Shown here: positions 6,487 through 30,454 of the stretch, piece by piece | How the letters are laid out: the number at the start of each line of letters is the position of its first letter | Position numbering within the stretch: position 1 is the first letter of the stretch | Position numbers and translations under genes: made by a program | DNA from: a virus | DNA length: 37,623 nucleotides | Reading direction: 5' to 3' (one strand) | IMG/VR virus record: IMGVR_UViG_3300032006_001361 | Span: 1 to 37,623 of that record | Notes under the pieces: model-generated | Database searches by the model: none | The model's input: the letters and a program-made list of their open reading frames with translations, nothing else | Told to the model about the DNA's origin: nothing

Positions 6487-8679
6487 CTAGATAATTTCAC
6501 ATGCTCCACCAGCACAGGCAATCTCTTGTTCTGGCGTAGTGTTGTCATGCTCCTCTATGCAATCAGTATACTCTACTGCGGTATACTCTCTCTTCATGTC
6601 TACCCACTCTTTCCAATTGTACACATCTTTCATGCAGTATGTGAGCCTTTTGATGTCTCCGTCCATGTACTTTTTAGTAAACTTTTTGCATCGCTCAACC
6701 CATTCTCTTTTTCCGTTGCCTTTAATTCTAGTTCCCACCCCCAACAGTCCATCACAAGCTGCCCATAGGTTATCTTCCCAGAGGTTAAGCGCAACTTCAA
6801 TCAACCCACTAACAAACATCGCGCCGTCGCCGTAGTGCGATACCATTTCGCTGGGAAGATACACCGTCGTGAACGGTGCTTGCGGATAGTCCTTATCTCC
6901 ACTCAACGGAAGCAGAGAGACGCCACAAAAATACTTTCTGTTTTTGTAGATAAATTTCTCTACGTCTTCCCATTCTTCTGGCTTCACGTTGATTGTGTTA
7001 GACACGTTGTGTTGCAGAAACGGTTTGACACAGAGAGAATCGTTTCTTCCTGTCATGACCCAGTTCTGCTGTGTACTTTTTACATACTCCAAGAGGCCAA
7101 TAGCCCCAATCTGGTTCTTTAATTTAGAACCGGCAGGAACTTCTATGCAAAAACAGATTACATCGTCACTGTCGTTTGCGGACCAGACCGACTCTTCGCA
7201 TGCTCTCGGATTTGTTTTCTTAAAGTGTTGATATATATCCTCCATCTTATTAGCCTGTACACGTCTAATATAGCGCTTGGCATGATGAGGATGAATGCCA
7301 GAACTAGTACCGAGAATACAACTAGCAGTCCCTTCAGGCTTGACACAAGTAGTCCTAGCTGCTGTATTAATTCCGATTTTCTTAGCAAGGTCTTTATTCG
7401 TTTTCTTAACAACCCTAGCGCCTTCCTTTTGGATATCGGGGTCCAGACAGATATCGTGACGTTCCATGATACCCGTCATGGAAACTCCGAGAAGAGCCTC
7501 TCTTCTAAGGATTCTTTCAGTGACCTCTCCCAAGTAGGCCATCTTTGAGAATCCAGCTTGGAGAGTTCCGATGATGGATGCCGCTCTACAAGACTCAAAG
7601 AACTCTTCTTTGGTTTTGATTTTGGCACAGTTGACCGTGCTAAGATTACACGCTTGCCACCCCGTCTCTCCCGTCTCCTCGTCTACGGGATAGAGTCCAA
7701 TCTCAACACAGGGGTTTACAATAAGCTCGGTAGAATCTGACCAGACAAAGCCCGGCTCTCCAAACTCCTTTACGGAATTCATCAACTGCGAAAACTGCTC
7801 GCTGGTAGTGGAGCCACGAACAAGTAGAGCAGAATTATTGCTACGACCACGCTGAGGATTATCATGAAACCAATTGCCAGTCTTTGCCAGTGCCATTTCT
7901 TCGTCGTCTGCGCTAAAAAGACAAATCGTAGCGCTTCGACGTACACCACCACTAATAACAGCGTCAGCAGCGTGCATAACAACGTCATAGACATCTATCG
8001 GTCTCAGCTTCTTTGTTGCGCTGAACTCAGCTTCCTTGAGAGCCTTGTCCAAAACCTTTTTGATACTTGACAAAGCCTTCTTAAGAGGCTCTGGTCCGGG
8101 CGCCTTCCCTGAGCTTGAGCTTAGATATGAACCAGCGGGCCTGATTTCAGAGTAGTCAAACGATACTGTTTTGCCTACATACTCTGGGAAGAGTTCATCC
8201 TGTTCTAGATAGCTGCTGACTAATACTCCAACGGCATCAGACCAGCCTTCTATTGTGTCTGGTATGGTAAACTTTTTTGTTCCATTGGCTTTGTATTTTT
8301 GAACTAGCTCTGGAAGTTTTTCTACATGATGCTTTTGAACAGAGAACCCGGTCCCACAACCACACAGTAAAAGATACATACACTCCTGAAAAAACCTCGG
8401 CCTATCTATATAGGAGGCTATGCAGTTGTATATTCTGGCGTTGTGTTTCAGCACTGGGGAGCCTCCGAATTGGAGGGCGCGTTGAGAACCCAGAACGCGC
8501 TTTCTATTCATCATGTCATAAGCCCATTCAATCTCCTCCGTAACAGAGGGATAGGACTCCAACATCATGCCTTTAACACGTTCTACGCTTTCCTTCCATG
8601 TTTCTCTTCTCTTCTTTTCGGGAATCCATCTGGCATATTTGCCAACAAAAGTATAATTCTGTAGCTCCGCTACTGACAT
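6487..8679 (-). CDS. nrdJ: Class II (adenosylcobalamin-dependent) ribonucleoside-triphosphate reductase
   Basis: This 730-residue enzyme reduces NTPs to dNTPs using coenzyme B12. It resembles the monomeric Lactobacillus leichmannii enzyme: IYNC at 83-86 supplies the first redox Cys, NPCVE at 322-326 the thiyl-radical Cys and Glu, and ACNLSTVN at 343-350 the second redox Cys. The C-terminal pair C722/C727 in CAGGACEII is the swinging reductant. SGGVRRSA near 243-250 is also family-typical. A class II enzyme needs no oxygen and no second subunit but depends on host or environmental cobalamin. The start has AGGAAG upstream and overlaps the nuclease stop by one base. Confidence 0.93.
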   Translation of the reverse strand: MSVAELQNYTFVGKYARWIPEKKRRETWKESVERVKGMMLESYPSVTEEIEWAYDMMNRKRVLGSQRALQFGGSPVLKHNARIYNCIASYIDRPRFFQECMYLLLCGCGTGFSVQKHHVEKLPELVQKYKANGTKKFTIPDTIEGWSDAVGVLVSSYLEQDELFPEYVGKTVSFDYSEIRPAGSYLSSSSGKAPGPEPLKKALSSIKKVLDKALKEAEFSATKKLRPIDVYDVVMHAADAVISGGVRRSATICLFSADDEEMALAKTGNWFHDNPQRGRSNNSALLVRGSTTSEQFSQLMNSVKEFGEPGFVWSDSTELIVNPCVEIGLYPVDEETGETGWQACNLSTVNCAKIKTKEEFFESCRAASIIGTLQAGFSKMAYLGEVTERILRREALLGVSMTGIMERHDICLDPDIQKEGARVVKKTNKDLAKKIGINTAARTTCVKPEGTASCILGTSSGIHPHHAKRYIRRVQANKMEDIYQHFKKTNPRACEESVWSANDSDDVICFCIEVPAGSKLKNQIGAIGLLEYVKSTQQNWVMTGRNDSLCVKPFLQHNVSNTINVKPEEWEDVEKFIYKNRKYFCGVSLLPLSGDKDYPQAPFTTVYLPSEMVSHYGDGAMFVSGLIEVALNLWEDNLWAACDGLLGVGTRIKGNGKREWVERCKKFTKKYMDGDIKRLTYCMKDVYNWKEWVDMKREYTAVEYTDCIEEHDNTTPEQEIACAGGACEII

Positions 8680-10544: not shown

Positions 10545-10874
10545 TCATCTAAAATCATCCATGGTGTACCTATTCTCCATATTTTTATTTCTCATTCTGC
10601 AATCGGGACACATAGGTACTTTTTGCCCGTGCATATTGAGTTGGTGCTGAATTCTAAGAACCTGTTGCACCATAACGGTATCTCTATATACAGCTTGCTT
10701 ATTTACGTTCTGTAGAGCAGCGGCTATTGCTGCGACTTCATGTCCAACAGCAGAGACCGGTTTTTGACGTGGTGCTGCTTCTTTGTTTTTTGATTCAAAA
10801 TAATACAAAGACAGCCCAACATTCGCAGCCGTACAAGCAAGAAAAAGAAGCAGGAGATTAGTTGTAGTTTTCAT
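10545..10874 (-). CDS. Membrane-anchored small protein with CPDC motif
   Basis: The 109-residue protein starts with an uncleaved-looking hydrophobic helix (TNLLLLFLACTAANVGLSLYY), followed by a linker and a helical domain (residues 45-85). It ends with MCPDCRMRN, a single CxxC. The topology is that of an inner-membrane protein with an outside domain, as in spanins, but there is no proof. Its start overlaps the stop of the exported protease gene (ATGA), linking the two. Confidence 0.6.
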   Translation of the reverse strand: MKTTTNLLLLFLACTAANVGLSLYYFESKNKEAAPRQKPVSAVGHEVAAIAAALQNVNKQAVYRDTVMVQQVLRIQHQLNMHGQKVPMCPDCRMRNKNMENRYTMDDFR

Positions 10875-11845
10875 CGTAGTGGCTTCTTTGTGTCTGGGAG
10901 TCTGTTGTTATTCGACTCTCTGGTTACAGGAAGAACGGGAAATCTCAAACCGTCCTTTGTGGGTATGCTCTTCTCATTTTTTGGGTTGCGCGTTGGCGAG
11001 CTTCCCTCTGGGTTTAGAGAAGTGACCGCCTGTAGGGAGGGAACTTTTACATCTGTGTCAATAGCCCACAGAACCCCCTCTTTCTTGGCGTACTCCCTCA
11101 TTCTTCTAACTGGAACAATTAGGTTGAAGGTTTCACCAGCACCTCTAACAAGCATGCCCATGTACTGACCAGCCTTTTCTCCAGACCTTTCACTTAGAAA
11201 TACTCCACCGCCACTGGAACCCGGAAATGCGGTAACGGTTGTTTGGTCAAACACAACTCCATCGCCATTACCCAAATCAAGAACTCTACCAACTTGAGAG
11301 CAAATCCCTCGCGTCATCGAGTTACTGCCTACTTGTCCTAGTAAGGAGCCTACATGATATAACTCAGTACCAATAGCCACTGGCTTGCCTTCGTTCTTAT
11401 AGAAAGTAACAGTCTTATCGATAAAGCCTTTCTTTCTAACCATCAAGAGAGCCAAGTCTTCTCCGTTTTCAGCATCGGAGTACTTAATGACCTTGGCTTC
11501 CATCTTGATTTCTCCAACACGGCGTCCATCCTCAACCAATTCTTTAACAATCTGAGCATCTTTAAACTCAACGACTGTCTGTGGTTTGCCATTCTTGATT
11601 TCTACCCTGACAGACCTTAGCCCGTCTACTACGTGTGCAGCGGTCCATACAAAGTTAACCTTCTGCTTAACGTTGGGCGCCACTTCAACCTCTCGCGTAA
11701 CAATAACGCCAGAGCCTTCACCGAACCCAGATTTAACCGTAACTGAAACATCTTGTAGATGCTGATACAGTTGGTTGTCCTGAGCGAGGACGCTGGTAGC
11801 AAACACAAAAATAGATAGCAATGCTGTCCCAAAAACCTTCTTCAT
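10871..11845 (-). CDS. Exported trypsin-like serine protease
   Basis: A Sec signal peptide spans residues 1-21 (KKVFGTALLSIFVFATSVLA, ending before QDN). The trypsin fold follows with a complete triad: His71 in TAAHVV, Asp130 in NGEDLALL and Ser211 in FPGSSGGGVF. The 324-residue length leaves a roughly 60-residue Pro/Asn/Arg-rich tail without a PDZ domain, unlike DegP. It would act outside the cytoplasm. Exported proteases are unusual for phages; it may process an envelope or secreted target during lysis, or shield the infected cell. It is followed by a membrane-anchored small protein. Confidence 0.85.
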   Translation of the reverse strand: MKKVFGTALLSIFVFATSVLAQDNQLYQHLQDVSVTVKSGFGEGSGVIVTREVEVAPNVKQKVNFVWTAAHVVDGLRSVRVEIKNGKPQTVVEFKDAQIVKELVEDGRRVGEIKMEAKVIKYSDAENGEDLALLMVRKKGFIDKTVTFYKNEGKPVAIGTELYHVGSLLGQVGSNSMTRGICSQVGRVLDLGNGDGVVFDQTTVTAFPGSSGGGVFLSERSGEKAGQYMGMLVRGAGETFNLIVPVRRMREYAKKEGVLWAIDTDVKVPSLQAVTSLNPEGSSPTRNPKNEKSIPTKDGLRFPVLPVTRESNNNRLPDTKKPLR

Positions 11846-12703: not shown

Positions 12704-14737
12704 TTACTCGACGTTAAATTTTTCTTTCAATCTCTGTCTAAGTAGCGTGTTAATTTGATTAACAGTCATGGTTTGGTCATCACTATATTCGTTGACTAAT
12801 TCTCCGATTACAGTCATGATTTGCTCAGCACTAACTTTCTTTCTAGTAGCGAAAGGAATATTAATGAACTGAGGCGGAAGACCATGTGCAGCTACTGGCT
12901 GTTGATAGTATGGCGCAGAAACTGGAAGACCGTAGGGAACAAAGCCCGGATTAAGACCGCTGTCCCCTTCTACTTGATGCTTCAAGTTTTCATCTATCTC
13001 GTAGGTAGTTTGAGGATTTGGAAGTTCGTCTGGCGTCATAACAAACCCGCCATCGGGATGCTCATATTTGTGATAGTGTTCATGAACATGCTTATGTTCC
13101 TTGGATTCACAGTCACAGTCACAGTCACCATCACTATTATACCCCAATCCCTCTGTCTCGTTGCCGAAATTTCCTTCATTTTCTTCTTCTTCTTCTTCTT
13201 CTTTTCTTCGGCGTCTTCTTCCAATTCTTCCTAGCACAAGAGGCACTCCATATTTAAGCGCCAACGCACCAAGGCTCATGCCACCCAGAGTTAGACTAAC
13301 GTTTTCTACGGTATTACCGTTTCCACCAGTCATGTCATCAAGGTAGTGTCCTGAGCCTTCGAGTAGTTTGTCCTTATTGCCAATTAGAACAAGAAGATTT
13401 TCTATCCTAGAAGAGAGCGAACTCTTTTCGCCTTCGACTCTTCCTAGAAGGTCTTTCAATCCGTTGATTTCGTTTTGAGAGCTTGACAGGTTCCCAGATA
13501 CTCCAGATAGTTCAGCCTGTAGGCTTTGATGCAGAGCTTCTAAATTTGTTAGCTTCTCTTTAAGCTCTGCAATCTTATCAAGATATTCTTGACGTTCCTT
13601 ATCGAAGTCTGGACCCGGCTCTACAGGACCACCGGGGTCTGGCCTTCCCGGCCAGCTATTAAACCCGCCCCCGCCATCTGGGGGGTTGTCTGGACCGCCT
13701 CCGGGCGGCTGTGGGTTTGGTGGTGGTGGACATGGATTATTGAATGGACACCAAGGGAAAAGACCTTCTCCGTTGTATAGTTCTTTAACCTTTATACCTT
13801 TAAAGAAATCTAAGCTCTTGGCCGTTCTGCCATCTTCAAGCGTTAGGATGGGACAATATATGAATTCGCCATTGCTGGTTTTTCTTAGACCGCCCTCTTC
13901 TGGAATTATGATGTGTTCACCAATCGCTTGTTTGCAGTGAGGACAAGCCTTTTTCATTCGCTCTGGTTGAGGCTTAGAAATTTTTTCTTTTGGATGGTCA
14001 TGGCCCTCGTGGACAACTCTGTAAGAAGTTTCGATTGGATGTCCATGACCGTTGCCTTCAATAATTTCATAGATTTGTTTAAGAGATAGGCCAGCACCGT
14101 AGTCGTTTGGACCATCGTCTGTCCAAGCGCCATCTCCAACTCGCCAAGCAAGTAAAACACCTATGCGGGTTTGAAGCTCTCCCTTTTCGTCTTTAATCAG
14201 TACCAGAACACCACTTCCAGATTGACCACCTATTGGGGCGGCGTTAAAGCTTACGACAGCGCCAGTGTTTCTTATAATTCTACCGTACCAAGCCATGGCC
14301 CACTGTCCGCTCGGACAGCCGCCAGCCATAATATAATCATTTGGCTTAATTTCTGTACCCTTTGGAGCAAGGGGAATAATTCTAGGTGGATATCTACCAA
14401 AATATTTCTTTTTTACAGAAATTATAGCTAGGTCAAGAGCAGTACCGTCTTTGTATGCAACATACTCAGTCTTAAACGGCAGTCGGGCAGACTTGTAGCC
14501 ACTCTGAAAAAATTCTACGTGGCCTTTTCTGGCGCGTTCTATAACGTGACCGTTGGTTAGAATAAAATATTTATCTTTATCTTCTCCAAATACCGTACCG
14601 CTTCCTCTAGCTCCACTGGTGCTGATTCTACAAACAGCTTCAAGGGCTTGGTCCATCGTTAGGGGTTTTGCTTCCGCGATGTTGGAAAGCAACACACCCA
14701 ATCCAAAAATGATTGAGAATATTAGCTTATTCATCAT
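12704..14737 (-). CDS. Membrane-anchored trypsin-like protease with coiled coil and metal-binding-like tail
   Basis: This 677-residue multidomain protein begins with a signal peptide (1-23) and a trypsin-like domain (about 25-230) with His64 in TNGHVI, Asp102 in TALDLAI and Ser173 in GGQSGSGV. A Cys-containing linker (CPHC near 265) and a Pro/Gly-rich hinge follow, then a coiled coil (about 380-455) and one membrane helix (about 483-505). A stop-transfer cluster GRRRRRK, a Glu run and a Cys/His-rich stretch (DCDCDCESKEHKHVHEHYHK) come next. The protease should face the periplasm or exterior and the tail the cytoplasm. No known phage protein with this layout comes to mind. Confidence 0.85.
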   Translation of the reverse strand: MMNKLIFSIIFGLGVLLSNIAEAKPLTMDQALEAVCRISTSGARGSGTVFGEDKDKYFILTNGHVIERARKGHVEFFQSGYKSARLPFKTEYVAYKDGTALDLAIISVKKKYFGRYPPRIIPLAPKGTEIKPNDYIMAGGCPSGQWAMAWYGRIIRNTGAVVSFNAAPIGGQSGSGVLVLIKDEKGELQTRIGVLLAWRVGDGAWTDDGPNDYGAGLSLKQIYEIIEGNGHGHPIETSYRVVHEGHDHPKEKISKPQPERMKKACPHCKQAIGEHIIIPEEGGLRKTSNGEFIYCPILTLEDGRTAKSLDFFKGIKVKELYNGEGLFPWCPFNNPCPPPPNPQPPGGGPDNPPDGGGGFNSWPGRPDPGGPVEPGPDFDKERQEYLDKIAELKEKLTNLEALHQSLQAELSGVSGNLSSSQNEINGLKDLLGRVEGEKSSLSSRIENLLVLIGNKDKLLEGSGHYLDDMTGGNGNTVENVSLTLGGMSLGALALKYGVPLVLGRIGRRRRRKEEEEEEENEGNFGNETEGLGYNSDGDCDCDCESKEHKHVHEHYHKYEHPDGGFVMTPDELPNPQTTYEIDENLKHQVEGDSGLNPGFVPYGLPVSAPYYQQPVAAHGLPPQFINIPFATRKKVSAEQIMTVIGELVNEYSDDQTMTVNQINTLLRQRLKEKFNVE

Positions 14738-21062: not shown

Positions 21063-21308
21063 CTATTTTTTATAGAAAGACAGGCGGGAAAGTTCATATC
21101 TTTTAGGGTCGGCAAGCCCGTTGTCTAAATTTTTTCTGCTAGTAGTATAGTACCCGTGTTCGTCCTTCAGGACAACTAAATTTTTATCAGAAAGCTCCTC
21201 GGTTTTTTCCTCATCAATCATTGAAGAATGACTGCCGTATCTTGTTGGGTGAGGGTACTTCTCTGCTTTTTGTGGTACTACTCTTCGTCTAGTTTGTCTA
21301 GGCGGCAT
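21063..21308 (-). CDS. Unknown basic protein
   Basis: This 81-residue protein has a strongly basic N-terminus (PPRQTRRRVVPQKAEKYPHP) and an acidic middle. It overlaps the membrane-protein gene upstream by 11 bases. No family is recognised. Confidence 0.55.
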   Translation of the reverse strand: MPPRQTRRRVVPQKAEKYPHPTRYGSHSSMIDEEKTEELSDKNLVVLKDEHGYYTTSRKNLDNGLADPKRYELSRLSFYKK

Positions 21309-21765
21309 TCTTAATCGCCCTCTTAACGGGTTTTATAAAATAGTGACCGATAAATCCTCCAATGCGAGACATCCCAAGTGACGTTCTGAGATAGTTTTCA
21401 AGTCTCGTAAGAGGACAAACCTCTCTTGTGAATGTAACGGTAAGAATAAAGCTGTTAACTGGAACCCACATCCATAAGGGGTACATAAAGGGAAGAATGA
21501 AGAAGGCCATTATATTTACTATCACAATAAACATATGAAATGATATGATTGAATATAGTATCGCCTTCTTGAAAAGATTTTCTCTCTTAGGCTTTCTCTC
21601 ATACAAAGCCTTAAGCATTTCAAGGCTTACTTTAAGAGAATCGTTGTCGGTTTTTTGTCCTATCTCTTGTTCTAGTCGTGCTGTTAGCTCTCGTGCCTGT
21701 TCTTCATCTAAATATTCATCAAGTATCTCAACTATATTAAGAGCTTCGTTGTTACTGGTAGGCAT
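21298..21765 (-). CDS. Membrane protein, weakly DUF2784-like
   Basis: The 155-residue protein has a cytoplasmic helical N-terminus (about 1-65) with a Glu-rich segment (EILDEYLDEEQARELTARLE). Two membrane helices follow (about 68-90 and 92-110), then FTREVCPLTRLENYLRT and GGFIGHYFIKPVKRA. The CPLTxLExxLR and GGFIxHY blocks resemble DUF2784-type membrane proteins of unknown function, from memory only. It starts 15 bases after the UDP-sugar dehydrogenase gene and may belong to the same transcript. Confidence 0.6.
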   Translation of the reverse strand: MPTSNNEALNIVEILDEYLDEEQARELTARLEQEIGQKTDNDSLKVSLEMLKALYERKPKRENLFKKAILYSIISFHMFIVIVNIMAFFILPFMYPLWMWVPVNSFILTVTFTREVCPLTRLENYLRTSLGMSRIGGFIGHYFIKPVKRAIKNAA

Positions 21766-21780
21766 TATTGTATCCCTATA

Positions 21781-22641
21781 CTAGGTGTCGTTTTCAGGAC
21801 TGTCTACAACAGCCCTTCCCTTTAGACTCTCCCAGTCCTTCTCTGGCCTAACCATAAGGTTGGTGTTCCACGCCCCGCTTATTGTGTTGGCCTGAATACA
21901 TAGAGAGTGAGTCAGGTGCATTAAAGCATTCAAATCCTTGGGGAAGCAGCTTCCTCCGAATCCATAGTGCCCATCTGGACCCGGAACTGACCAGTGAGAA
22001 CGTCCAAGCCTCTCGTCATAGAGAGAATATTCTAGCACCTTATCGTAATCTATACCTAAACTTTCACAAATTGCATAAATTTCATTAGCAAAAGATACTT
22101 TAACTGCTAAGAATGTATTAGTTAGATACTTAATCATTTCAGCAATTGTTGAATCAGTTTTTACTATATCTGCACCGGGAAATATTCTTGAATAGAATTG
22201 TTTTAATATCGTCGTCGCTGGCCTTGGGCCGCCAAGTATAACACGAGTAGTGTTCTTAAAGTCTTCCTCTGCATTTCTCTCCAATAAGAATTCAGGATTG
22301 AAAACTATATGGGAGTCTTGACATAAATCTTGCAGGGACTTTGTGGTGTTGGGAGGTACTGTAGACTTAATTGCTATTATATTTTTTCTTCCAGTACTGC
22401 AAGCCGCTTTGACAACATCTGTAACTATTGATATATCACAAGAGCCATCTTTATTCATCGGAGTGGGGACGCATATAAAGATAATTTCACAGGCTCTGGA
22501 TAATGCTTGAATAGTTTTGTGGGTAGATTTGTTTGCTTGAAATTTATCATAAGTGTATACATTATAATAATTTTCAAACGTACTTCTCAAAGCGCTTCCA
22601 ACAAAGCCCTGACCTATTATCCCTACGCTTTGTATTTTCAT
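21781..22641 (-). CDS. UDP-glucose/GDP-mannose 6-dehydrogenase family protein lacking the C-terminal domain
   Basis: The N-terminal Rossmann domain starts GIIGQGFVGSAL (7-18). CVPTPMNKDG (57-66), the STVPP turn (93-97) and EFLLERNAEEDF (117-128) follow. FGGSCFPKD at 228-236 holds the catalytic Cys232, which forms the thiohemiacetal during oxidation of the sugar C6 to a carboxylate. The protein stops at 286 residues, where normal enzymes (about 390-450) continue into a UDP-binding domain. It may act with a shortened donor site or on another substrate. It overlaps the aminotransferase stop by 4 bases and ends the seven-gene operon. Confidence 0.85.
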   Translation of the reverse strand: MKIQSVGIIGQGFVGSALRSTFENYYNVYTYDKFQANKSTHKTIQALSRACEIIFICVPTPMNKDGSCDISIVTDVVKAACSTGRKNIIAIKSTVPPNTTKSLQDLCQDSHIVFNPEFLLERNAEEDFKNTTRVILGGPRPATTILKQFYSRIFPGADIVKTDSTIAEMIKYLTNTFLAVKVSFANEIYAICESLGIDYDKVLEYSLYDERLGRSHWSVPGPDGHYGFGGSCFPKDLNALMHLTHSLCIQANTISGAWNTNLMVRPEKDWESLKGRAVVDSPENDT

Positions 22642-23840
22642 AGCTTGTTTGCCGCTCTGCTTATAAAGGTTACTGCTGAGTCCGCATCCTGTTTTGAAAA
22701 TGTCAGTGCTGGTCTAAGTCGGATTGAGTGAGTCCCAGACTTAAGCACAATCATGTCTTCTTGGAGCAAAGAAACCATTCGGTCTCTTAGGTCGGGTGTG
22801 TCTAAATCAAAAGCAATCATTAGACCCATGCCCCTGACATTAGAAATAACATCCAGATTGTTTAGGGCATTTTCAAGATGGCTACCAACCTCGTGGGCAT
22901 TATCAATGAGCTTTTCTTCTTCAATAGCATCCATTATATGACTGAATCTAACCATATCAACAATATTCCCACCCCAAGTAGAATTAATCCTACCACTATC
23001 ATTGAACACATTGTGTTCCACCTCGTCTATCCTATCAGTTGAACAGAATCCACAGACTTGCGTCTTTTTACCAAAGCACATCATGTCGGGAACTATTCCA
23101 AAATGTTCATAGCACCACATTTTACCTGTCAGTCCAACGCCAGTCTGGACCTCATCAAATATTAGAATAGCATCGTTGTCGTCTGCCCACTTTCTCATTA
23201 GGGGGAAAAGTTCTGGAACAAAGTGATTGTCTCCACCTTCGCCCTGAATAGGCTCTACGACCATTGCGGCCACTCTGTCGTGCATCAATTCCTCTGCGTC
23301 CTCGATGCTCCATATTCTATTCCACTGAAACTTCGGAAACAAGGCTGTTTTTTCCGGCGTAGTGTTTGTCAGTGAAAGAGTGTATCCGGTTCTTCCATGA
23401 AAAGCATTCCCCAAATGGAACACATCAAGAGTGTTGATGTCTTCATCGCTAGTTAACCCTAGCTTTTTTGCTTTCCAGTCGAATGCTGCCTTAAGCGCAT
23501 TTTCTACAGCTAAAGCACCGCCGTCAATGAAAAAATAATGACTAAAGTCTGGAGTGATACCAGAAAACTTTTCTACGAATGAGGCATACTGTTCCGTATA
23601 CATATCGCTGTTGGCAATTTTATGCATAGCTACTTCTCCAAGCTCTTGCTTTGCATTTACCAACACTTTATGATTCCAACCTAGCGGCTGGCTGGCGAAT
23701 TGTGAATAACAATCTAGATACTTGTTTCCATCTAGGTCTACTATCCAAGAACCTAAACTTTTCTTTTGGTTAACAGCGATGTGAAAACCGTCGACTAGTA
23801 TATGCTTTGATAACTTGTCTATAACTGAAGTGTTAGACAT
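22638..23840 (-). CDS. lat: L-lysine 6-aminotransferase (class III PLP aminotransferase)
   Basis: The enzyme moves the epsilon-amino group of lysine to 2-oxoglutarate, giving glutamate and 2-aminoadipate 6-semialdehyde. The sequence follows mycobacterial/actinomycete LAT closely: FFIDGGALAVENALKAAFDW (103-122), FHGRTGYTLSLTNT (148-160), EPIQGEGGD (196-204), IFDEVQTG (227-234), and FGKKTQVCG (256-264) with the PLP Lys258. NSTWGGN comes later. Ornithine aminotransferases differ at the GGALAVENALKAAFDWK block, so lysine is the likelier substrate. The 400 residues are near full length. It sits between the guanidino-hydrolase and UDP-sugar dehydrogenase genes. LAT is known mainly from beta-lactam biosynthesis and mycobacterial persistence; in a phage it is striking. 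Confidence 0.9.
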   Translation of the reverse strand: MSNTSVIDKLSKHILVDGFHIAVNQKKSLGSWIVDLDGNKYLDCYSQFASQPLGWNHKVLVNAKQELGEVAMHKIANSDMYTEQYASFVEKFSGITPDFSHYFFIDGGALAVENALKAAFDWKAKKLGLTSDEDINTLDVFHLGNAFHGRTGYTLSLTNTTPEKTALFPKFQWNRIWSIEDAEELMHDRVAAMVVEPIQGEGGDNHFVPELFPLMRKWADDNDAILIFDEVQTGVGLTGKMWCYEHFGIVPDMMCFGKKTQVCGFCSTDRIDEVEHNVFNDSGRINSTWGGNIVDMVRFSHIMDAIEEEKLIDNAHEVGSHLENALNNLDVISNVRGMGLMIAFDLDTPDLRDRMVSLLQEDMIVLKSGTHSIRLRPALTFSKQDADSAVTFISRAANKL

Positions 23841-24622
23841 TTTGCTGCTCCTCCTGCTTTTATAAACTCCGACATATCGCAGTAGTTTATCATGCTATCA
23901 TAAAATACTGAGGCGCAATCTTTAGAGGGAGTTATTATATTTTCGCCTATACAAACGCTGTTACAAACAAATTGTTTTGCAAGACCTTCGCACACATTGA
24001 CTACATCAAGATACTCTTTATTTCTCTGTGATTCATTTAAAAGAGTATCTAACATATCGTCTACAGAACTGATAGAAAATGCTTTTCTGTGATACACTAC
24101 CCTGTTTTTCGTAGGCAAGAAACACGTATCCAAGTGATAGAATCTAGGGTCTACTAATTCACAGGATACATAGTCAACATTAAGCGCAGTAGCAACCAGT
24201 TTATGAGAAGCTAGGTCAGTTCTAAACCCGTAACCCATGAACAATATATCGTTAAAAAATAAAGCATCCCCAGCACCTTCAAACTTAAGATGCTCGGGGA
24301 TTTCAATGACCTTGTAATTGTTTTTTAGAAACCAGTCTTTGTAGTACTGTTTTTCTTTTTGTCTCTCCGGGTGTTTAAAATTAGACAGAACAACAGTGTT
24401 GCCTCTGACTACTCCAGCATTGGCAACGAAAACCATATCTGGAACTTCTGGCTCAGAGTTTATGTATACAAGCTCTGCCCCGCATCTTGAAAGAGTATCG
24501 TGAAGTAGGTTCCACTGTTTTTCAGAGACTAGTTGGTCTGGCTTATTGCTTGTATCCATCCAAGGATTTATTTCATACTCTAAAGAGTAGAATGACGGAT
24601 TACATACAAGTATTTTACTCAT
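23819..24622 (-). CDS. Arginine dihydrolase/DDAH-like guanidino hydrolase
   Basis: The pentein (amidinotransferase) fold is shown by PDMVFVANAG (Asp62), FEGAGDALF (Glu115), LVDPRFYHLDTCFLP (His163) and the C-terminal AGGAAKCLTLQL (Cys262). Together these form the full catalytic set of DDAH and the arginine-dihydrolase relatives. Such enzymes convert arginine to ornithine or citrulline with release of ammonia and CO2, or methylated arginine to citrulline. Substrate choice cannot be read here. Related genes in bacteria are commonly found near ornithine aminotransferases, from general knowledge. The gene overlaps SET by 4 bases and the aminotransferase by 22, so it is cotranslated with both. Confidence 0.82.
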   Translation of the reverse strand: MSKILVCNPSFYSLEYEINPWMDTSNKPDQLVSEKQWNLLHDTLSRCGAELVYINSEPEVPDMVFVANAGVVRGNTVVLSNFKHPERQKEKQYYKDWFLKNNYKVIEIPEHLKFEGAGDALFFNDILFMGYGFRTDLASHKLVATALNVDYVSCELVDPRFYHLDTCFLPTKNRVVYHRKAFSISSVDDMLDTLLNESQRNKEYLDVVNVCEGLAKQFVCNSVCIGENIITPSKDCASVFYDSMINYCDMSEFIKAGGAAKCLTLQL

Positions 24623-24984
24623 GTCTTCCAGCCGGGTTCGGGTTGCTCTAATTCTAAATCTTTTGTGTAGTCTACTAGTAACTCCTCTCCTGCAATTATA
24701 TTCCTTAAAGTTACTAAGCCTTTAGTAAGGCCGTCCGTAACTATTTTACAGTTTTCTCTTTCCTTGGAGTGGTTGTATTGATTGTTCGGAGTTAGATTAA
24801 TCCAACTAGATGAGATTCCTGTGTAGTCCACTAGTTCTTTATGCACGTGTGTTACATGGAGCGTGGTATTTTTTTCAATATCTGAGACGGCAAAAAGTCC
24901 TTTACCGTGAACTTTGCTATTGTTGACTACAACTTTTTCATGAGGAACGCTGGTGATAAAATCTTTTTCTTCCATAAAAAACAT
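24619..24984 (-). CDS. Small SET-domain protein (putative lysine methyltransferase)
   Basis: The 121 residues are a minimal SET fold: NNSKVHGKGLFAVSDIEKNT (21-40), then NNQYNHSKERENC (67-79) and GEELLVDYTKDL (99-110). NHS and the following Cys region correspond to the NHxxxPN motif, and VDY ends with the active-site Tyr106. SET enzymes move methyl groups from S-adenosylmethionine to protein lysines. The size is that of the chlorella-virus vSET. The Pro-Asn of the canonical motif is replaced, so activity is not certain. It sits between two amino-acid-converting enzymes. Confidence 0.78.
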   Translation of the reverse strand: MFFMEEKDFITSVPHEKVVVNNSKVHGKGLFAVSDIEKNTTLHVTHVHKELVDYTGISSSWINLTPNNQYNHSKERENCKIVTDGLTKGLVTLRNIIAGEELLVDYTKDLELEQPEPGWKT

Positions 24985-26480
24985 TACTCGGTCCCAGCTT
25001 TCATCCCCTGTGGAAAGTTGAGTGAGTCACCGTGATTAACGGTCCACGCAACCTCGTGAGTAACTGCCCTAAATGTTCTGGCTGCGCTAGGCTGTCCGTT
25101 TCCAGACTTCTTTACTCCTCCGAATCCCAAATGGCTCTCAGCCGCAATACTGCCACCGTTCCAATAACCAAGACCAAAATCACATTCGTTGCGGATACGT
25201 CTGGCAATTTTAAAATCCTCCGTTACGACTCCTAGAGCAAGTCCATAATCAGTGTCGTTGTAAATCCTAATAGCATCACCAACTGTATCGTAAGGAATGA
25301 TTGATACATGAGGTCCGAACACTTCTTGCTTGAGATATGGAACATCTCTCCACTCCGTTTGATATACAGTAGGTGTCAAGAACAGGCTGTCTTCTACCTG
25401 CTCTCCCATAAGTAGAACGTCTGCTTCTGGGTCTGCGGCAACCATCTTATTGAACCAAACAACTCTGTCAAGTTGTTTCTTATTGATTAGAGGGCCGTAA
25501 AAAGTATCTTCTGAAAATGGGTTGCCAGTTTCAAGGTCTCCACTCCTGTTAGCAAACTCGTCTGCAAATTTATTATATAAACTTCTGTGGACAATTATTC
25601 TGCTGGCAGATACACATCGCTGACCGGATAATTTATAAGCACTGGCTAAGCAAGCCGCCATAGCCATGTCATAATTAGCGTCTTCATGAACAATTACTGC
25701 CGACTTGCTCCCCATTTCGCATGAACAGGTCTTGTGCCAACTTTCGGCGCAGGTTTTTCTGACGTGCATTCCAACATCAGCGCTTCCCGTGAAGCATACA
25801 TGGTCTACGTCCTGTCTAATTAGACCATTTCCAACCTTACCGTCACCCTGTACCATGTTAAAAACGCCGGGAGGAAATCCTGCATCATGATATAGCTGCG
25901 CTGTTATTTGACCAACCCAAGGGGCATCTTCACTGGGTTTTAGAACAACGGTATTACCCTCAACAAGAGCAGGAGCAGCGCACCAAAAACCACCAATCGC
26001 AAAAGGAAAATTAAAAGGCGCAATAATTGCAACGACCCCTTTTGGTTTTCTAAGCATGTACGCATCTTTTTCTGGTAGCTCCGAAGCGATTGCTTCACCA
26101 TAAGGCATTCTCCCTGTACTGAAAGCGTATTGTGCCATGTGAAGAGCTTCGTTTACCTCGGCAATTGATTCGTTATAGACCTTTCCAGTCTCAAGAGTTA
26201 TCGCTTCGGCAATTTCTTCACGTCTTTGTTCAACTAAATTGGCTAGAGTAAGAAAGTATTCGGCCCTTTTTACCCTGCTGTATTCCTTCCATCCGTGAAA
26301 AGAGTCTCTTGCAAACTGGTATGCAGATTCCACCTCTGGAACGCTGGCCTCGGGAAAAGACCCAACAATTTCTCCAGTTGCAGGGTTTCTACTATCAAAG
26401 TAATCCGTAGACAGTGGGTCTGGAGAAAAAAACTGGCCGTTAATATAGTGATTTCCCTGTACGATTAAATATGTAGTCAT
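24984..26480 (-). CDS. NAD(P)-dependent aldehyde dehydrogenase (candidate aminoadipate-semialdehyde dehydrogenase)
   Basis: This 498-residue ALDH has the APFNFPF block with Asn157, LKPSE with Lys181, general-base Glu255 in CEMGSK and nucleophile Cys289 in SGQRCVSASR. EVFGPHVSI and FGGVKKSGNG follow later. Its C-terminal end (VAWTVNHGDSLNFPQGMK) is complete. Beside a lysine 6-aminotransferase, the obvious substrate is 2-aminoadipate 6-semialdehyde, made into 2-aminoadipate; glutamate semialdehyde is the alternative. The general-base context EMGSK departs from the usual ELGGK. Unlike many other genes here, its early Ile codons are mostly ATT/ATC. It overlaps VOC by 4 bases (ATGA) and SET by 1 base (TAATG). 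Confidence 0.88.
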   Translation of the reverse strand: MTTYLIVQGNHYINGQFFSPDPLSTDYFDSRNPATGEIVGSFPEASVPEVESAYQFARDSFHGWKEYSRVKRAEYFLTLANLVEQRREEIAEAITLETGKVYNESIAEVNEALHMAQYAFSTGRMPYGEAIASELPEKDAYMLRKPKGVVAIIAPFNFPFAIGGFWCAAPALVEGNTVVLKPSEDAPWVGQITAQLYHDAGFPPGVFNMVQGDGKVGNGLIRQDVDHVCFTGSADVGMHVRKTCAESWHKTCSCEMGSKSAVIVHEDANYDMAMAACLASAYKLSGQRCVSASRIIVHRSLYNKFADEFANRSGDLETGNPFSEDTFYGPLINKKQLDRVVWFNKMVAADPEADVLLMGEQVEDSLFLTPTVYQTEWRDVPYLKQEVFGPHVSIIPYDTVGDAIRIYNDTDYGLALGVVTEDFKIARRIRNECDFGLGYWNGGSIAAESHLGFGGVKKSGNGQPSAARTFRAVTHEVAWTVNHGDSLNFPQGMKAGTE

Positions 26481-27001
26481 TTGCAGTCCTTGCTTGATTC
26501 CATAAGATTCTTAACAGAATTCTGGCAGAAGCCCTTGTCGCCTCTTTCAATCAGTTCGATAATAATTCCGCCTAGATTTTTAAGTGGCTTAGTAAAAATT
26601 TGTCTCAGGTTGTCTTCTGGACAATCTATAACATCATCAGTAAGAAATTCTACCCCTGCCTCTTTCCACTGCTTAACCCTGCTGTCAATTTCCACAACTT
26701 GATACGCCATATGATGAACCCCGCCAACCCCGTCTCTCGCTGCAACCCACTGTCCGACTATTGAGTTCTCATCACCGTCAGAGATAAATATTTCTGGAGC
26801 AACGTGTCTAAGACCTCCCGGTTCTATGTTAACAACATTAAACATTTTCTCCGGGGGAAGCATAGCAATACATTTAGCAGTAGAATTATCGTCAAAGACA
26901 ATTTCAAACTCGGTCCCAACTTTATATCCTAATATAGCGGACAAAAAGCTAGCAGATTCTTCTCTAGATTTCACTCTGTATGCTATGTGGTCTAATCTCA
27001 T
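26477..27001 (-). CDS. VOC-superfamily protein resembling the HPPD catalytic half
   Basis: The 174-residue VOC protein has two beta-alpha-beta-beta-beta repeats. Metal ligands are His5 (DHIAYRV), His96 or His97 (GGVHHMAYQV) and Glu149 (GGIIIELIER). The ending QIFTKPLKNLGG, then ELIERGDKGFCQNSVKNLME, strongly resembles the C-terminal domain of 4-hydroxyphenylpyruvate dioxygenase, which uses 2-oxo acids and iron. Methylmalonyl-CoA epimerase is the other close alternative. In this operon it could act on the 2-oxo acid made from aminoadipate or arginine carbon; that is inference. It shares one base with HAD (TAATG) and four with ALDH. Confidence 0.75.
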   Translation of the reverse strand: MRLDHIAYRVKSREESASFLSAILGYKVGTEFEIVFDDNSTAKCIAMLPPEKMFNVVNIEPGGLRHVAPEIFISDGDENSIVGQWVAARDGVGGVHHMAYQVVEIDSRVKQWKEAGVEFLTDDVIDCPEDNLRQIFTKPLKNLGGIIIELIERGDKGFCQNSVKNLMESSKDCK

Positions 27002-27453
27002 TACGGACCCTTGATATTGTAAGCAATTCCCTTGCCGTCAGTGTCTAGTTCCTCTATTATAGGATTTCCATATTTATCCTTATCCTTCAGCGCATCAACC
27101 TCTTTCCATACTTCTTCCCAGCCAGACTCATCGTCCCCCCTGACTCTGGCCGCTTTGTCATCAATGTAAATAGCACCGGCTGGCTTTCCCATCCAAGCAT
27201 AGGTATATTTCACACCATTTTTTTCTAGCCAGTCGGTCCATTCTCTATAGCCTCGTTCATACATACGATGTATGTTTCCGTTTTCTCTATCGCCATACCT
27301 TGCAGTATACAGGACAATTTCATATCCCATATCATGTAGTTTGTTTACTTGTTCTATGCCATGCTTTAGGGGTCCAGCTTTTGCATAACTTCCCCCATTA
27401 TTTTTGTCAGCAATAACCCCGTCGCAATCTACTATAAGTCTCTTGGTAGTCAT
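27001..27453 (-). CDS. HAD-superfamily hydrolase, polynucleotide/capsule phosphatase-like
   Basis: The 150-residue protein has HAD motif I VDCDGVIAD (Asp9 nucleophile, Asp11), motif II LYTAR (Thr49), motif III MGKPAGA (Lys89) and motif IV IYIDDKA (Asp97/Asp98). No large cap domain is present, so it probably acts on a phosphorylated small molecule or nucleic-acid end. Similar short HADs appear in capsule and nucleotide-sugar loci. It is the first gene of the operon and lies directly downstream of tRNA-Arg. Its exact substrate cannot be read. Confidence 0.78.
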   Translation of the reverse strand: MTTKRLIVDCDGVIADKNNGGSYAKAGPLKHGIEQVNKLHDMGYEIVLYTARYGDRENGNIHRMYERGYREWTDWLEKNGVKYTYAWMGKPAGAIYIDDKAARVRGDDESGWEEVWKEVDALKDKDKYGNPIIEELDTDGKGIAYNIKGP

Positions 27454-27467
27454 ATAAAACCTCTCAG

Positions 27468-27541
27468 TACCCTCGGCAGGACTCGAACCTGCAACCTACG
27501 GTTTAGAAGACCGTTGCTCTGTCCTGTTGAGCTACGAGGGC
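27468..27541 (-). tRNA. tRNA-Arg (UCU)
   Basis: A 74-base cloverleaf runs from GCCCTCG to CGAGGGTA. The 7-bp acceptor stem has one G-U, the anticodon stem is ACGGT/ACCGT with loop CTTCTAA (anticodon TCT), and the T-arm is GCAGGTTCGAGTCCTGC. The CCA end is not encoded. It decodes AGA, a favoured Arg codon in many genes here (4 of 6 Arg codons in the DnaB fragment). Confidence 0.93.
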
Positions 27542-27811: not shown

Positions 27812-27986
27812 CTTTATCCTTGTCGGTATTCCTTATGGGAGTAAGCCGCTCTCTATTTTCCCACTGGATTTTCTCTATCTCCCTTTGAAGTTTCTTTTCC
27901 TCTCTATTGAGGGTTCTTCTTCTAAGGAGCTTCTGTTTAACCCGCTTCTCTCTGGCTTTCTTTTTTTGGTCTCTTTTTTTTGGCAT
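27804..27986 (-). CDS. Short highly basic helical protein
   Basis: The 60-residue protein is a single charged helix (KKRDQKKKAREKRVKQKLL, later EEKKLQREIEKIQ). It may bind nucleic acid. It overlaps both neighbours (50 and 8 bases), which supports coupled expression. It is similar in style to the 36-residue basic frame at 9872-9982. Confidence 0.55.
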   Translation of the reverse strand: MPKKRDQKKKAREKRVKQKLLRRRTLNREEKKLQREIEKIQWENRERLTPIRNTDKDKDG

Positions 27987-28251
27987 TTGGCAGTTCTTCC
28001 GCTGTAATTGTTACCTTGTATTTTGTTTCTCCGAACAAATCGCAACCGATTGCGTGCATTACATCTTCAATAGTTGCAAAGTTTGTTCCTAGCACACAAC
28101 CTGTGCCACCTTCTTTGCCAAAAATTTTACTTTGTGTTCTAGGTGTAATCTCGGTAAACATAAGGTTGCTTCTAGATAGGCTGTCTATCTTGCAATCAAA
28201 GTGAATCTTTTTGAGCTTTTTTCTCTGATTCTGCGAAACGTAGTTAGTCAT
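27937..28251 (-). CDS. Unknown protein downstream of tmRNA
   Basis: The 104-residue frame starts at ATG 28251, with AAGGA about 8 bases before. An upstream extension in the same frame would run into the tmRNA 3' end and is rejected. The core (GKEGGTGCVLGTNFATIEDV, then HAIGCDLFG) precedes a Lys-rich tail. It begins 45 bases after the tmRNA. No family is recognised. Confidence 0.65.
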   Translation of the reverse strand: MTNYVSQNQRKKLKKIHFDCKIDSLSRSNLMFTEITPRTQSKIFGKEGGTGCVLGTNFATIEDVMHAIGCDLFGETKYKVTITAEELPNAKKKRPKKESQREAG

Positions 28252-28295
28252 CCAGATGTCCTTCCAAAATTTCCAAACAGAAAAGTTAATTAAAG

Positions 28296-28634
<339 letters not shown>

Positions 28635-28780: not shown

Positions 28781-28786
28781 TATAAG

Positions 28787-28858
28787 TACCCCCGGTGAGA
28801 GTCGAACTCACGTTACCGCTTTATAAGAACGGCGTTCTAACCGTTGAACTACGGGGGC
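28787..28858 (-). tRNA. tRNA-Ile (UAU)
   Basis: A 72-base cloverleaf runs from GCCCCCG to CGGGGGTA. The acceptor has 7 pairs including G-U at the first, the anticodon stem is CCGTT/AGCGG with loop CTTATAA (anticodon TAT), and the T-arm is GTGAGTTCGACTCTCAC. CCA is not encoded. It reads AUA, used for 8 of 12 Ile codons in the DnaB fragment but absent from the first 12 Ile codons of rIIA. Confidence 0.93.
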
Positions 28859-28864
28859 AGTTGT

Positions 28865-29050
28865 CTATACCTTGCGTGCTATTTCTATAAGTTCATCAGT
28901 AAGAAGAACTACTGTTTGTTTAGAAATAGTCTCGGTCCCATCAAACCAAGTTTGAATTATAGAGACTTCTTTTTTCCCCGTAGAAGTATAGGCTTTAGTT
29001 TCCCAATGAAAATCACCCATACTCTCGTCACATTTGTAAATAAGACTCAC
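28865..29050 (-). CDS. Unknown small protein
   Basis: This 61-residue protein starts with GTG overlapping the aldolase stop (GTGA), with GGGGTG upstream. The middle (DFHWETKAYTSTGKKEVSII) looks like a beta sheet. It ends 6 bases before tRNA-Ile. No family is recognised. Confidence 0.6.
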   Translation of the reverse strand: MSLIYKCDESMGDFHWETKAYTSTGKKEVSIIQTWFDGTETISKQTVVLLTDELIEIARKV

Positions 29051-30015
29051 AGTTCACCCCATGTGGCGTTACTGCAATCTTTTGCCTTCTTTAAAAGTTG
29101 TTTTTGTGCTTCGTCTTTATGACCAAGCGACCATTGTTTTAGAGCGCTTTTCTGTAGTTCTCTACCGAACGAAAATGTTAAATACCAAGGGTGAAACAGG
29201 TCAGGAGACTCCTGATTCATGGCATTGAGATTTTCTACAGACTCTTGCTTTGGTTGTCCACCGCTAAGAAAAGCAATAACAGGAACAGCAGAAGGAACTG
29301 TTCTTTTAAAGCAAGCTATCGTTAGTTCGGCAACAATATCCGGCCCGATTCTTTTATCATTCTTGTAACCAGACATTACCATGTTCGGCTTGAGTATAAT
29401 ACTCTCAAGTTCGACCCTCTCCTTCCATAGCTCGTCAAAAACACAGTGAAGACAGTGTTCAGTGACATTAAAAGACTTAAGAGCGCCGTGGTTTCCGTCC
29501 ATTAGAATTTCTGGTTCTACTATGGGGACGATACCCTCTTTCTGACACTTTTTTGCATAAATAGCAAGAGCGCGAGCGTTTGCTCTTAGGCAATTTACAG
29601 TTGTCTTTGGAGCCAGAACGGCTCGCCACTTGGCAAACTCTGCCCCCAGCCTTTTGTAGCCTCTGAGACGCTCTGAGAGGCCGTCAAGACCCTCTGTGAG
29701 CCTCTCGCCCTGTAGATGGGAGTTGTACGGCTTCGCCCCGGTGTCGACTTTAACTCCAAGCACTATTTTAGAGTCAATTAAAGGTTTAATCGTCTCTTCG
29801 TTCTTAATAGTCTCATCAAAAAGGATAACCCCACTTATAAACTCTTGCAGACCCTTTGCTGAGAAGATTGTATGACGATAATCGTGCCTTGTCTCTGGCG
29901 TAGAAGTTATACTGACTGACTCGAACCGACTTTTTATAGTCGGCGTGCTTTCGTCTGCTGCAAGTATTCCCTTTCCAAGAATATCCAGCTTAAGTATAGT
30001 ATCATTCATCGACAT
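29047..30015 (-). CDS. fba: Class I fructose-bisphosphate aldolase
   Basis: The enzyme cleaves fructose 1,6-bisphosphate to dihydroxyacetone phosphate and glyceraldehyde 3-phosphate. The class I (Schiff-base) type is shown by GKGILAADES, FAKWRAVLAP, PIVEPEIL and the imine Lys in ILKPNMV (about residue 209), then AFLSGGQ. The frame extends a little upstream, but ATG at 30015 has AGGGG about 10 bases before it and gives 322 residues. It overlaps the deaminase end by 14 bases. Aldolase would steer host carbon during infection; it is not a usual phage gene, and class I is the metal-free form. Confidence 0.92.
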   Translation of the reverse strand: MSMNDTILKLDILGKGILAADESTPTIKSRFESVSITSTPETRHDYRHTIFSAKGLQEFISGVILFDETIKNEETIKPLIDSKIVLGVKVDTGAKPYNSHLQGERLTEGLDGLSERLRGYKRLGAEFAKWRAVLAPKTTVNCLRANARALAIYAKKCQKEGIVPIVEPEILMDGNHGALKSFNVTEHCLHCVFDELWKERVELESIILKPNMVMSGYKNDKRIGPDIVAELTIACFKRTVPSAVPVIAFLSGGQPKQESVENLNAMNQESPDLFHPWYLTFSFGRELQKSALKQWSLGHKDEAQKQLLKKAKDCSNATWGEL

Positions 30016-30454
30016 TGGTATAAATCCCCTGTTCATGCAAAGAAGCTATATTTCCATTCGAGTCTGACCACCAAACCTTGTCAATCCCAAGAACGGAAAT
30101 CATATTCATACACGACTTGCATGGTTTACTATTCTGCAATTCTCCCCTACTGTTTATTCTTAATACTACAACTTTGACAGAATTATCAACATAAATCTTT
30201 CCCCATAGCTTACTAACTAGGTCTACTTCGGCGTGAAGAAAAGGATATGAGATTTGTTTTTTGTTGTTAAACCTCTTCGCAAACCACAACGCTTTGGCGC
30301 TCTCGTTGTAGGTATCGTTCTGGCCTATGGCCAACAGCCTCCTCTTCTTCCAACCGAAAGCAAAATGGAACGCTCGATAACCTTTCTTTTTTTCATACGC
30401 TGTTGGAAACAACTGGTATGCAATTTCAATAGAACGGTCTATGATTTTCGTCAT
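30002..30454 (-). CDS. Cytidine/nucleotide-deaminase-like protein
   Basis: This 150-residue protein has the zinc-deaminase signature: HAEVD (His74, Glu76) and KPCKSCM (Cys112, Cys115). It differs from the dCMP deaminase at 9433 in having a basic N-terminal half and no dCMP-type loop. It could deaminate a free nucleotide, a nucleoside or tRNA. It starts directly after the noncoding structured region. Confidence 0.78.
   Translation of the reverse strand: MTKIIDRSIEIAYQLFPTAYEKKKGYRAFHFAFGWKKRRLLAIGQNDTYNESAKALWFAKRFNNKKQISYPFLHAEVDLVSKLWGKIYVDNSVKVVVLRINSRGELQNSKPCKSCMNMISVLGIDKVWWSDSNGNIASLHEQGIYTNVDE

Follow-up and report, generated by a model that had tools for sequence, protein, structure and literature searches.

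Discussions of phage metabolic genes usually present them as enhancing photosynthesis, sugar flow (pentose phosphate) and nucleotide supply. The IMG/VR virus record examined here (IMGVR_UViG_3300032006_001361; 37,623 bases in full, hereafter the window) resembles these cases in carrying host-like enzymes on a tailed-phage genome, and differs from them in that its seven-gene block appears to represent a basic-amino-acid route kept as one coupled unit. The closest described systems are the lat plus pcd/amaB route of bacterial lysine degradation, the cyanobacterial arginine dihydrolases ArgZ/AgrE (Sll1336, Alr4995) and, for the VOC-fold protein of the block, the 2-hydroxyglutarate synthase HglS/FLO7 (DUF1338) and hydroxymandelate synthase/HPPD. 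The reading favored here, at roughly two chances in three, is that the block is an auxiliary-metabolism operon that would break down arginine and lysine side chains in the infected cell; we infer all reactions and substrates, and what the phage would gain, from protein families, active-site residues, gene order, coupling, purifying selection and co-occurrence. The genes of the block, all on the minus strand, and their downstream neighbor are as follows.

27001..27453, minus strand: HAD-superfamily phosphatase-like protein (EcbF/BcbF-like), 150 amino acids, first gene of the block (NCBIfam TIGR01689, 3e-14, below cut-off)
26477..27001, minus strand: single-domain VOC protein, 174 amino acids (Pfam Glyoxalase_4; AlphaFold2 model; residue counts in 53 phage homologues)
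24984..26480, minus strand: aldehyde dehydrogenase (ALDH; proposed aminoadipate/glutamate semialdehyde dehydrogenase), 498 amino acids (Pfam Aldedh, 1e-125)
24619..24984, minus strand: small SET-domain protein, accessory, 121 amino acids (Pfam SET, 6e-7)
23819..24622, minus strand: ArgZ-like arginine dihydrolase of the guanidine-modifying superfamily, 267 amino acids (NCBIfam Arg_dihydro, 233 bits; PDB 6jv0)
22638..23840, minus strand: L-lysine 6-aminotransferase-like class III pyridoxal-phosphate enzyme (LAT), 400 amino acids (TIGR03251, 477 bits; PDB 2cin)
21781..22641, minus strand: shortened UDP-glucose-dehydrogenase-like protein (UGD), 286 amino acids (Pfam UDPG_MGDP_dh_N and UDPG_MGDP_dh only)
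21298..21765, minus strand: DUF2784 membrane-like protein, 155 amino acids, downstream neighbor of UGD (Pfam DUF2784, 5e-9)

The seven open reading frames span positions 27453 to 21781, with the coordinates of the initial annotation, and overlap at every junction, by 1 base (HAD–VOC and ALDH–SET), 4 bases (VOC–ALDH, SET–ArgZ and LAT–UGD) or 22 bases (ArgZ–LAT). All of the reading frames and overlaps that had first been described were thus recovered, and the enzyme families named at that stage were matched by searches of Pfam, NCBIfam and PHROGs: HAD (EcbF-like), VOC (Glyoxalase_4; MCE/HPPD-like), Aldedh, SET, a DDAH/ArgZ-type hydrolase, Aminotran_3, and the N-terminal and central domains of UDPG_MGDP_dh.

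In the proposed route, the dihydrolase would convert arginine into ornithine, CO2 and two NH3; the LAT-like enzyme would transfer the omega-amino group of lysine (and of ornithine) to 2-oxoglutarate, yielding aminoadipate (or glutamate) semialdehyde and glutamate; and oxidation of the semialdehyde by ALDH would give 2-aminoadipate (or glutamate) along with NADH. The net yield during infection would be glutamate, ammonia and reducing power, so that the output of glutamate and ammonia suggested in the initial annotation is what this predicted route would be expected to produce. The VOC protein would probably act on a later metabolite of this route, our best guess being that, once a host enzyme has carried out the alpha-transamination, it would turn 2-oxoadipate into 2-hydroxyglutarate.

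By profile, cyanobacterial ArgZ and not DDAH is the nearest relative of the guanidino hydrolase: the best PDB match of the phage protein is ArgZ Sll1336 (6jv0), at 252 bits, versus 43 bits for DDAH. Residues D62, N68, E115, H163 and C262 are invariant in 12 sequences; N68 aligns with the Asn of the ANAG motif in 6jv0 (chain 6juz has Ser there), and N68, H163 and C262 supply the motif Asn, the His and the C-terminal Cys of an arginine dihydrolase. The match to the N-terminal catalytic domain of ArgZ/AgrE is full-length and includes the FYHLDTCF motif and the C-terminal catalytic Cys, whereas the phage protein stands alone, without an ornithine cyclodeaminase domain, and scores under the curated cut-off. 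Apart from the block, stand-alone phage ArgZ-like genes were seen at no fewer than 80 virus loci in all (L034 among them), some with phage aspartate carbamoyltransferase or histidine-phosphatase-like neighbors (cluster 50, 10 of 67; cluster 36, 13 of 67); these genes perhaps supply ammonia or carbamoyl groups for pyrimidines.

For LAT, the best PDB match is the lysine-epsilon aminotransferase of Mycobacterium tuberculosis (2cin; 346 bits), and the motifs FGKKTQVCG (FGKKSQVCG in one of 13 phage LATs) and NSTWGGN, together with E201 and R150, are kept in phage LATs aligned to it. The aldehyde dehydrogenase belongs to a broad semialdehyde group, with C289 as the catalytic residue. Bacterial LATs often adjoin an ALDH, in one case a curated piperideine-6-carboxylate (P6C) dehydrogenase (825 bits, cut-off 730). 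When the phage enzyme is aligned with such LAT-adjacent bacterial enzymes, its E111 and R288 occupy invariant columns. These two residues we take to be the equivalents of Glu121 and Arg301 in the human ALDH7A1 sequence. In ALDH7A1, Glu121 and Arg301 form ion pairs with bound aminoadipate (PMC11362210). The phage genes share with the bacterial lat and pcd/amaB system the adjacency of LAT and ALDH, the first two proposed reactions and the Glu/Arg aminoadipate positions. They differ from it in that phage LATs reach no more than about 50% identity to their cellular counterparts and lie on a separate branch, that the phage ALDH is 28–36% identical to the bacterial partner enzymes, and that no VOC, ArgZ or UGD relative was found to adjoin the bacterial LATs at the threshold used.

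The gene order of the block recurs in about 16 other IMG/VR virus contigs at 50–95% identity, so that the search of related phages, proposed at the outset as a check, returned the order repeatedly. Identity to the window is about 88–95% in the two nearest contigs (L002 and L003), falls to 52–57% for ArgZ and 64–70% for LAT in the more distant relatives (L006–L016), and three further loci (L174–L176) hold all or most of the block; the carriers form a group of uncultured marine phages. All 12 loci measured share the ArgZ–LAT overlap of exactly 22 bases, and genes overlap at most of the remaining junctions too. Between the window and L003, the ratio of nonsynonymous to synonymous substitution rates (dN/dS) is 0.03–0.10 for each gene, and the block genes are under purifying selection. 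Because the order is found in about 16 contigs, the 22-base overlap is invariant and dN/dS is this low, the arrangement is not due to chance. The core is VOC–ALDH–ArgZ–LAT, usually with HAD and UGD, and SET is optional.

A 161-kb sister contig (L015/G004) carries the operon at about 130 kb and a terminase gene at 16.6 kb, and the L003 contig encodes DNA polymerase, primase, DnaB, UvsX and thymidylate synthase; with the kept gene order, these features place the block among phage auxiliary metabolic modules. In a maximum-likelihood tree, a single branch (support 99/90; present in all bootstrap trees) divides 47 viral from 36 cellular LATs, so none of the sampled cells is a recent source of the phage enzymes. 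The recurrence of the order in many contigs, the terminase of the sister contig and the separate viral LAT group together rule out an assembly artefact or a bacterial contig, and the core of the initial annotation, a contiguous and coupled lysine/arginine side-chain block borne by a phage, is well supported. Among cultured phages no close relative was found, the best UvsX-like match being 28%.

Parts of the block recur in other phages, including giants of 200–600 kb. A scan with the VOC protein gave 59 viral loci, 44 of them outside the main LAT operons; the records were chosen for carrying at least one of the genes, so that the counts given here should not be read as frequencies in the population; certain records may moreover be related to one another. 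Within the 44 loci, ALDH is present in 24, HAD (cluster 4) in 18 and a protein of ~370 residues with a saccharopine dehydrogenase C-terminal domain (cluster 7) in 22. A profile of 27 phage sequences of the last protein has PH1688 (PDB 3abi; 134 bits, residues 1–326) as its best and only full-length PDB match, which we take to be the structure of an L-lysine 6-dehydrogenase (LysDH). L-lysine 6-dehydrogenase and LAT yield the same product, and a substitution of the LysDH-like gene for LAT in other phage VOC–ALDH(–HAD) sets, to which this match points, supports the breakdown of basic amino acids as the role of the block. Whole records with both VOC and ALDH number 19, with LAT only in six, the LysDH-like gene only in nine, both in two and neither in two.

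Of 41 phage LAT loci outside the operon, mostly in large phages, 13 have a glutamate dehydrogenase gene 1.4–3.3 kb downstream of LAT; the enzyme would recycle 2-oxoglutarate, and its combination with LAT would amount to lysine 6-dehydrogenation. In the largest genomes the genes are dispersed: in G009 (381 kb), distances of tens to hundreds of kb separate LAT, ALDH, VOC and ArgZ; in LR756511 (595 kb), VOC, ALDH and LAT lie at 195, 320 and 504 kb; and G041 (245 kb) encodes VOC, LysDH, ALDH and ArgZ. Since the genes co-occur in huge phages without being adjacent, a joint function is indicated and not mere hitch-hiking.

The VOC protein was modeled with AlphaFold2 from 53 homologues, at a predicted local distance difference test (pLDDT) score of 87.9, compared with 59 for a model from ten sequences. 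Against the PDB, methylmalonyl-CoA epimerase is the best match by E-value, whereas query-normalized template modeling (TM) scores are higher for hydroxymandelate synthase (0.73–0.76) than for the epimerase (0.57–0.64). H5, E70, H97 and E149 are present in all 53 phage homologues and R9 in 52; H5, H97 and E149 (and E70) are candidate metal ligands. E70 may be a fourth metal ligand of the kind known in glyoxalase I, or correspond to the Gln of epimerases, which would favor isomerase chemistry. His70, His226 and Glu294 of HglS coordinate the metal, with Arg74 as the binding partner of the 2-oxoadipate distal carboxylate (PMC7286885). The phage protein has this His-His-Glu set and the substrate Arg by position in the sequence, the spacing of four residues from the first His to the Arg (H5/R9) being that of His70/Arg74. 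By contrast, it matches Glyoxalase families only and not the HglS/DUF1338 family PF07063. It thus shares with HglS/FLO7 and with hydroxymandelate synthase/HPPD the VOC fold and the His-His-Glu set, with the Arg placed as in HglS, and is unlike them in being one small domain of 174 residues, without PF07063 and with the additional invariant E70. Because of the His-His-Glu set and the Arg spacing shared with HglS, 2-oxoadipate, which would fit a lysine route, is a reasoned guess as the substrate.

A fold search of the viral structures in BFVD with the VOC model gave no match at E ≤ 0.001. In cells, only weak partial matches of 30–41 bits were found, in eight of 27 LAT-bearing genomes, and a search of 248 Bacteroidota genomes gave one match of 51 bits, other phyla including Pseudomonadota not having been searched for VOC. 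VOC homologues are also present in LR756511.1 (L084) and LR756504.1, uncultured phage genomes of 595–636 kb whose records are unannotated, at 48% and 43%. A search of 21 records of these phages for class I/II (PF00155-family) aminotransferases gave nothing beyond a single weak, partial hit, and the conversion of aminoadipate into 2-oxoadipate would accordingly fall to the host. A further extension, in which the phages encode a nearly complete route from lysine to 2-oxoglutarate, with VOC as a minimal, one-domain, virus-specific 2-oxoadipate hydroxylase and with an interchangeable entry (LAT, LAT plus glutamate dehydrogenase, or lysine 6-dehydrogenase), is tentative and on balance doubtful.

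Several observations weigh against a catabolic arginine and lysine operon as set out here. The scores of LAT (TIGR03251, 477.3 bits; cut-off 520.8, a cellular LAT getting 650), the ArgZ-like protein (NF052232, 232.8 bits; cut-off 450) and ALDH (NF050084, the P6C/aminoadipate semialdehyde dehydrogenase or ALDH7 profile, 267 bits; cut-off 730) are all under the curated equivalog cut-offs, and the enzymes are therefore named '-like'. E111 and R288 are also found in another LAT-linked ALDH type and so are not specific for aminoadipate semialdehyde. The two records that hold both LAT and the LysDH-like gene mean that the substitution is not strict, and many LAT-bearing huge phages, whose records may be incomplete, are without detectable ALDH or VOC. 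Finally, HAD, UGD and DUF2784 have no step in the proposed route. HAD is kept in most LAT operons and accompanies both cassette types, that with LAT and that with the LysDH-like gene, and DUF2784 lies downstream of UGD in nine relatives, at 66–95% identity.

Plain catabolism has no place for UGD and HAD, and the two would be better accommodated if the operon were biosynthetic, the semialdehyde or aminoadipate, perhaps together with UGD, HAD and a nearby glycosyltransferase, going not into fuel but into a modified metabolite carried on DNA, on the capsid or on the host surface. Several glycosyltransferases, a nucleotide-sugar epimerase and a sulfotransferase-like gene are encoded in the phage group, and GDP-fucose-synthase-like genes lie near VOC in some loci, as such a role would lead one to expect. 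UGD, however, consists of the NAD and central domains, its profile ending at about residue 261 of enzymes of more than 400 residues; all 12 homologues are short (279–291 residues) and without the UDP-binding domain, whereas the UDP-glucose dehydrogenases of phages SP-15 and Bellamy have 436 and 412 residues. The catalytic residues T94, E117, K171, N175, C232 and D236 are invariant, and UGD may oxidize a small alcohol or aldehyde instead. Oxidation of a UDP-sugar by UGD is unsupported, the UDP-binding domain being missing in all relatives. The block moreover contains no ligase or transferase; UGD was not found next to LAT in L174 and L176, which retain ALDH–ArgZ–LAT; and in huge phages LAT, ALDH and VOC are far apart, with LAT near glutamate dehydrogenase, a catabolic partner. 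A biosynthetic role is therefore unlikely. The same shortening of UGD makes doubtful the initial suggestion of a product attached to a sugar, and SET, found in two of 12 relatives (L003 and L007), is rejected as a core member of the pathway, of which it had been thought a part. Of the overall interpretation first offered, the contiguous phage block for lysine and arginine side chains is well supported, and these two elements are less so.

The invariant 22-base overlap couples ArgZ to LAT, and both genes are found together in three huge phages (G009, G013 and G016), which would also fit arginine as the chief substrate: ArgZ would yield ornithine, the LAT-like protein would be an ornithine aminotransferase and ALDH a glutamate-semialdehyde dehydrogenase, turning arginine into two glutamates plus ammonia, with lysine as a side substrate. 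The nearest solved relative of LAT is, however, a lysine enzyme, and VOC- and ALDH-bearing phages without LAT have the LysDH-like protein, mostly without ArgZ, which points to lysine as the common substrate; we consider an arginine pathway of this kind quite improbable. That the enzymes deplete free lysine and arginine or neutralize a host defense or stress system, and do not feed metabolism, can be given very little credence, its sole point being that three of them would use up basic amino acids or compounds derived from these, whereas the phage's own proteins need lysine and arginine, and the downstream ALDH and, elsewhere, glutamate dehydrogenase would be pointless for mere depletion.

Under the preferred reading, combined breakdown of both amino acids, the conserved coupled module, the non-homologous entry enzymes and the dispersed copies in genomes of 245–595 kb suggest that phage-directed metabolism has been selected to target lysine, often together with arginine, and the module would tie infection to host nitrogen and 2-oxoglutarate balance. 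A search of the open-access literature for a phage module of basic amino-acid breakdown found no report. The most novel part of the finding is the viral VOC family, defined here without a match in the predicted viral structure library searched (BFVD).

Other features of the window lie outside the block. A tRNA-Arg (TCT) gene (27467–27541, minus strand) precedes HAD, with 13 bases between its end and the start of HAD, and a tRNA-Ile (TAT) gene (28786–28858, minus strand) lies farther upstream. Between them, a one-piece transfer-messenger RNA (tmRNA) was found upstream of the operon at 28293–28634 on the minus strand (Rfam RF00023, 129.9 bits), with a tag read by eye as AEKQYALAA-stop; ARAGORN instead called a permuted tmRNA at 27846–28387, with an unlikely tag. 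Also on the minus strand are a class I fructose-bisphosphate aldolase gene (29047–30036; Pfam Glycolytic, 326 bits), a gene (6487–8679) for a protein like the B12-dependent (class II) ribonucleotide reductases, its Pfam domains scoring weakly, and two genes for trypsin-like proteins (10871–11845 and 12704–14737), the second having, by eye, a long proline/glycine-rich and coiled region.

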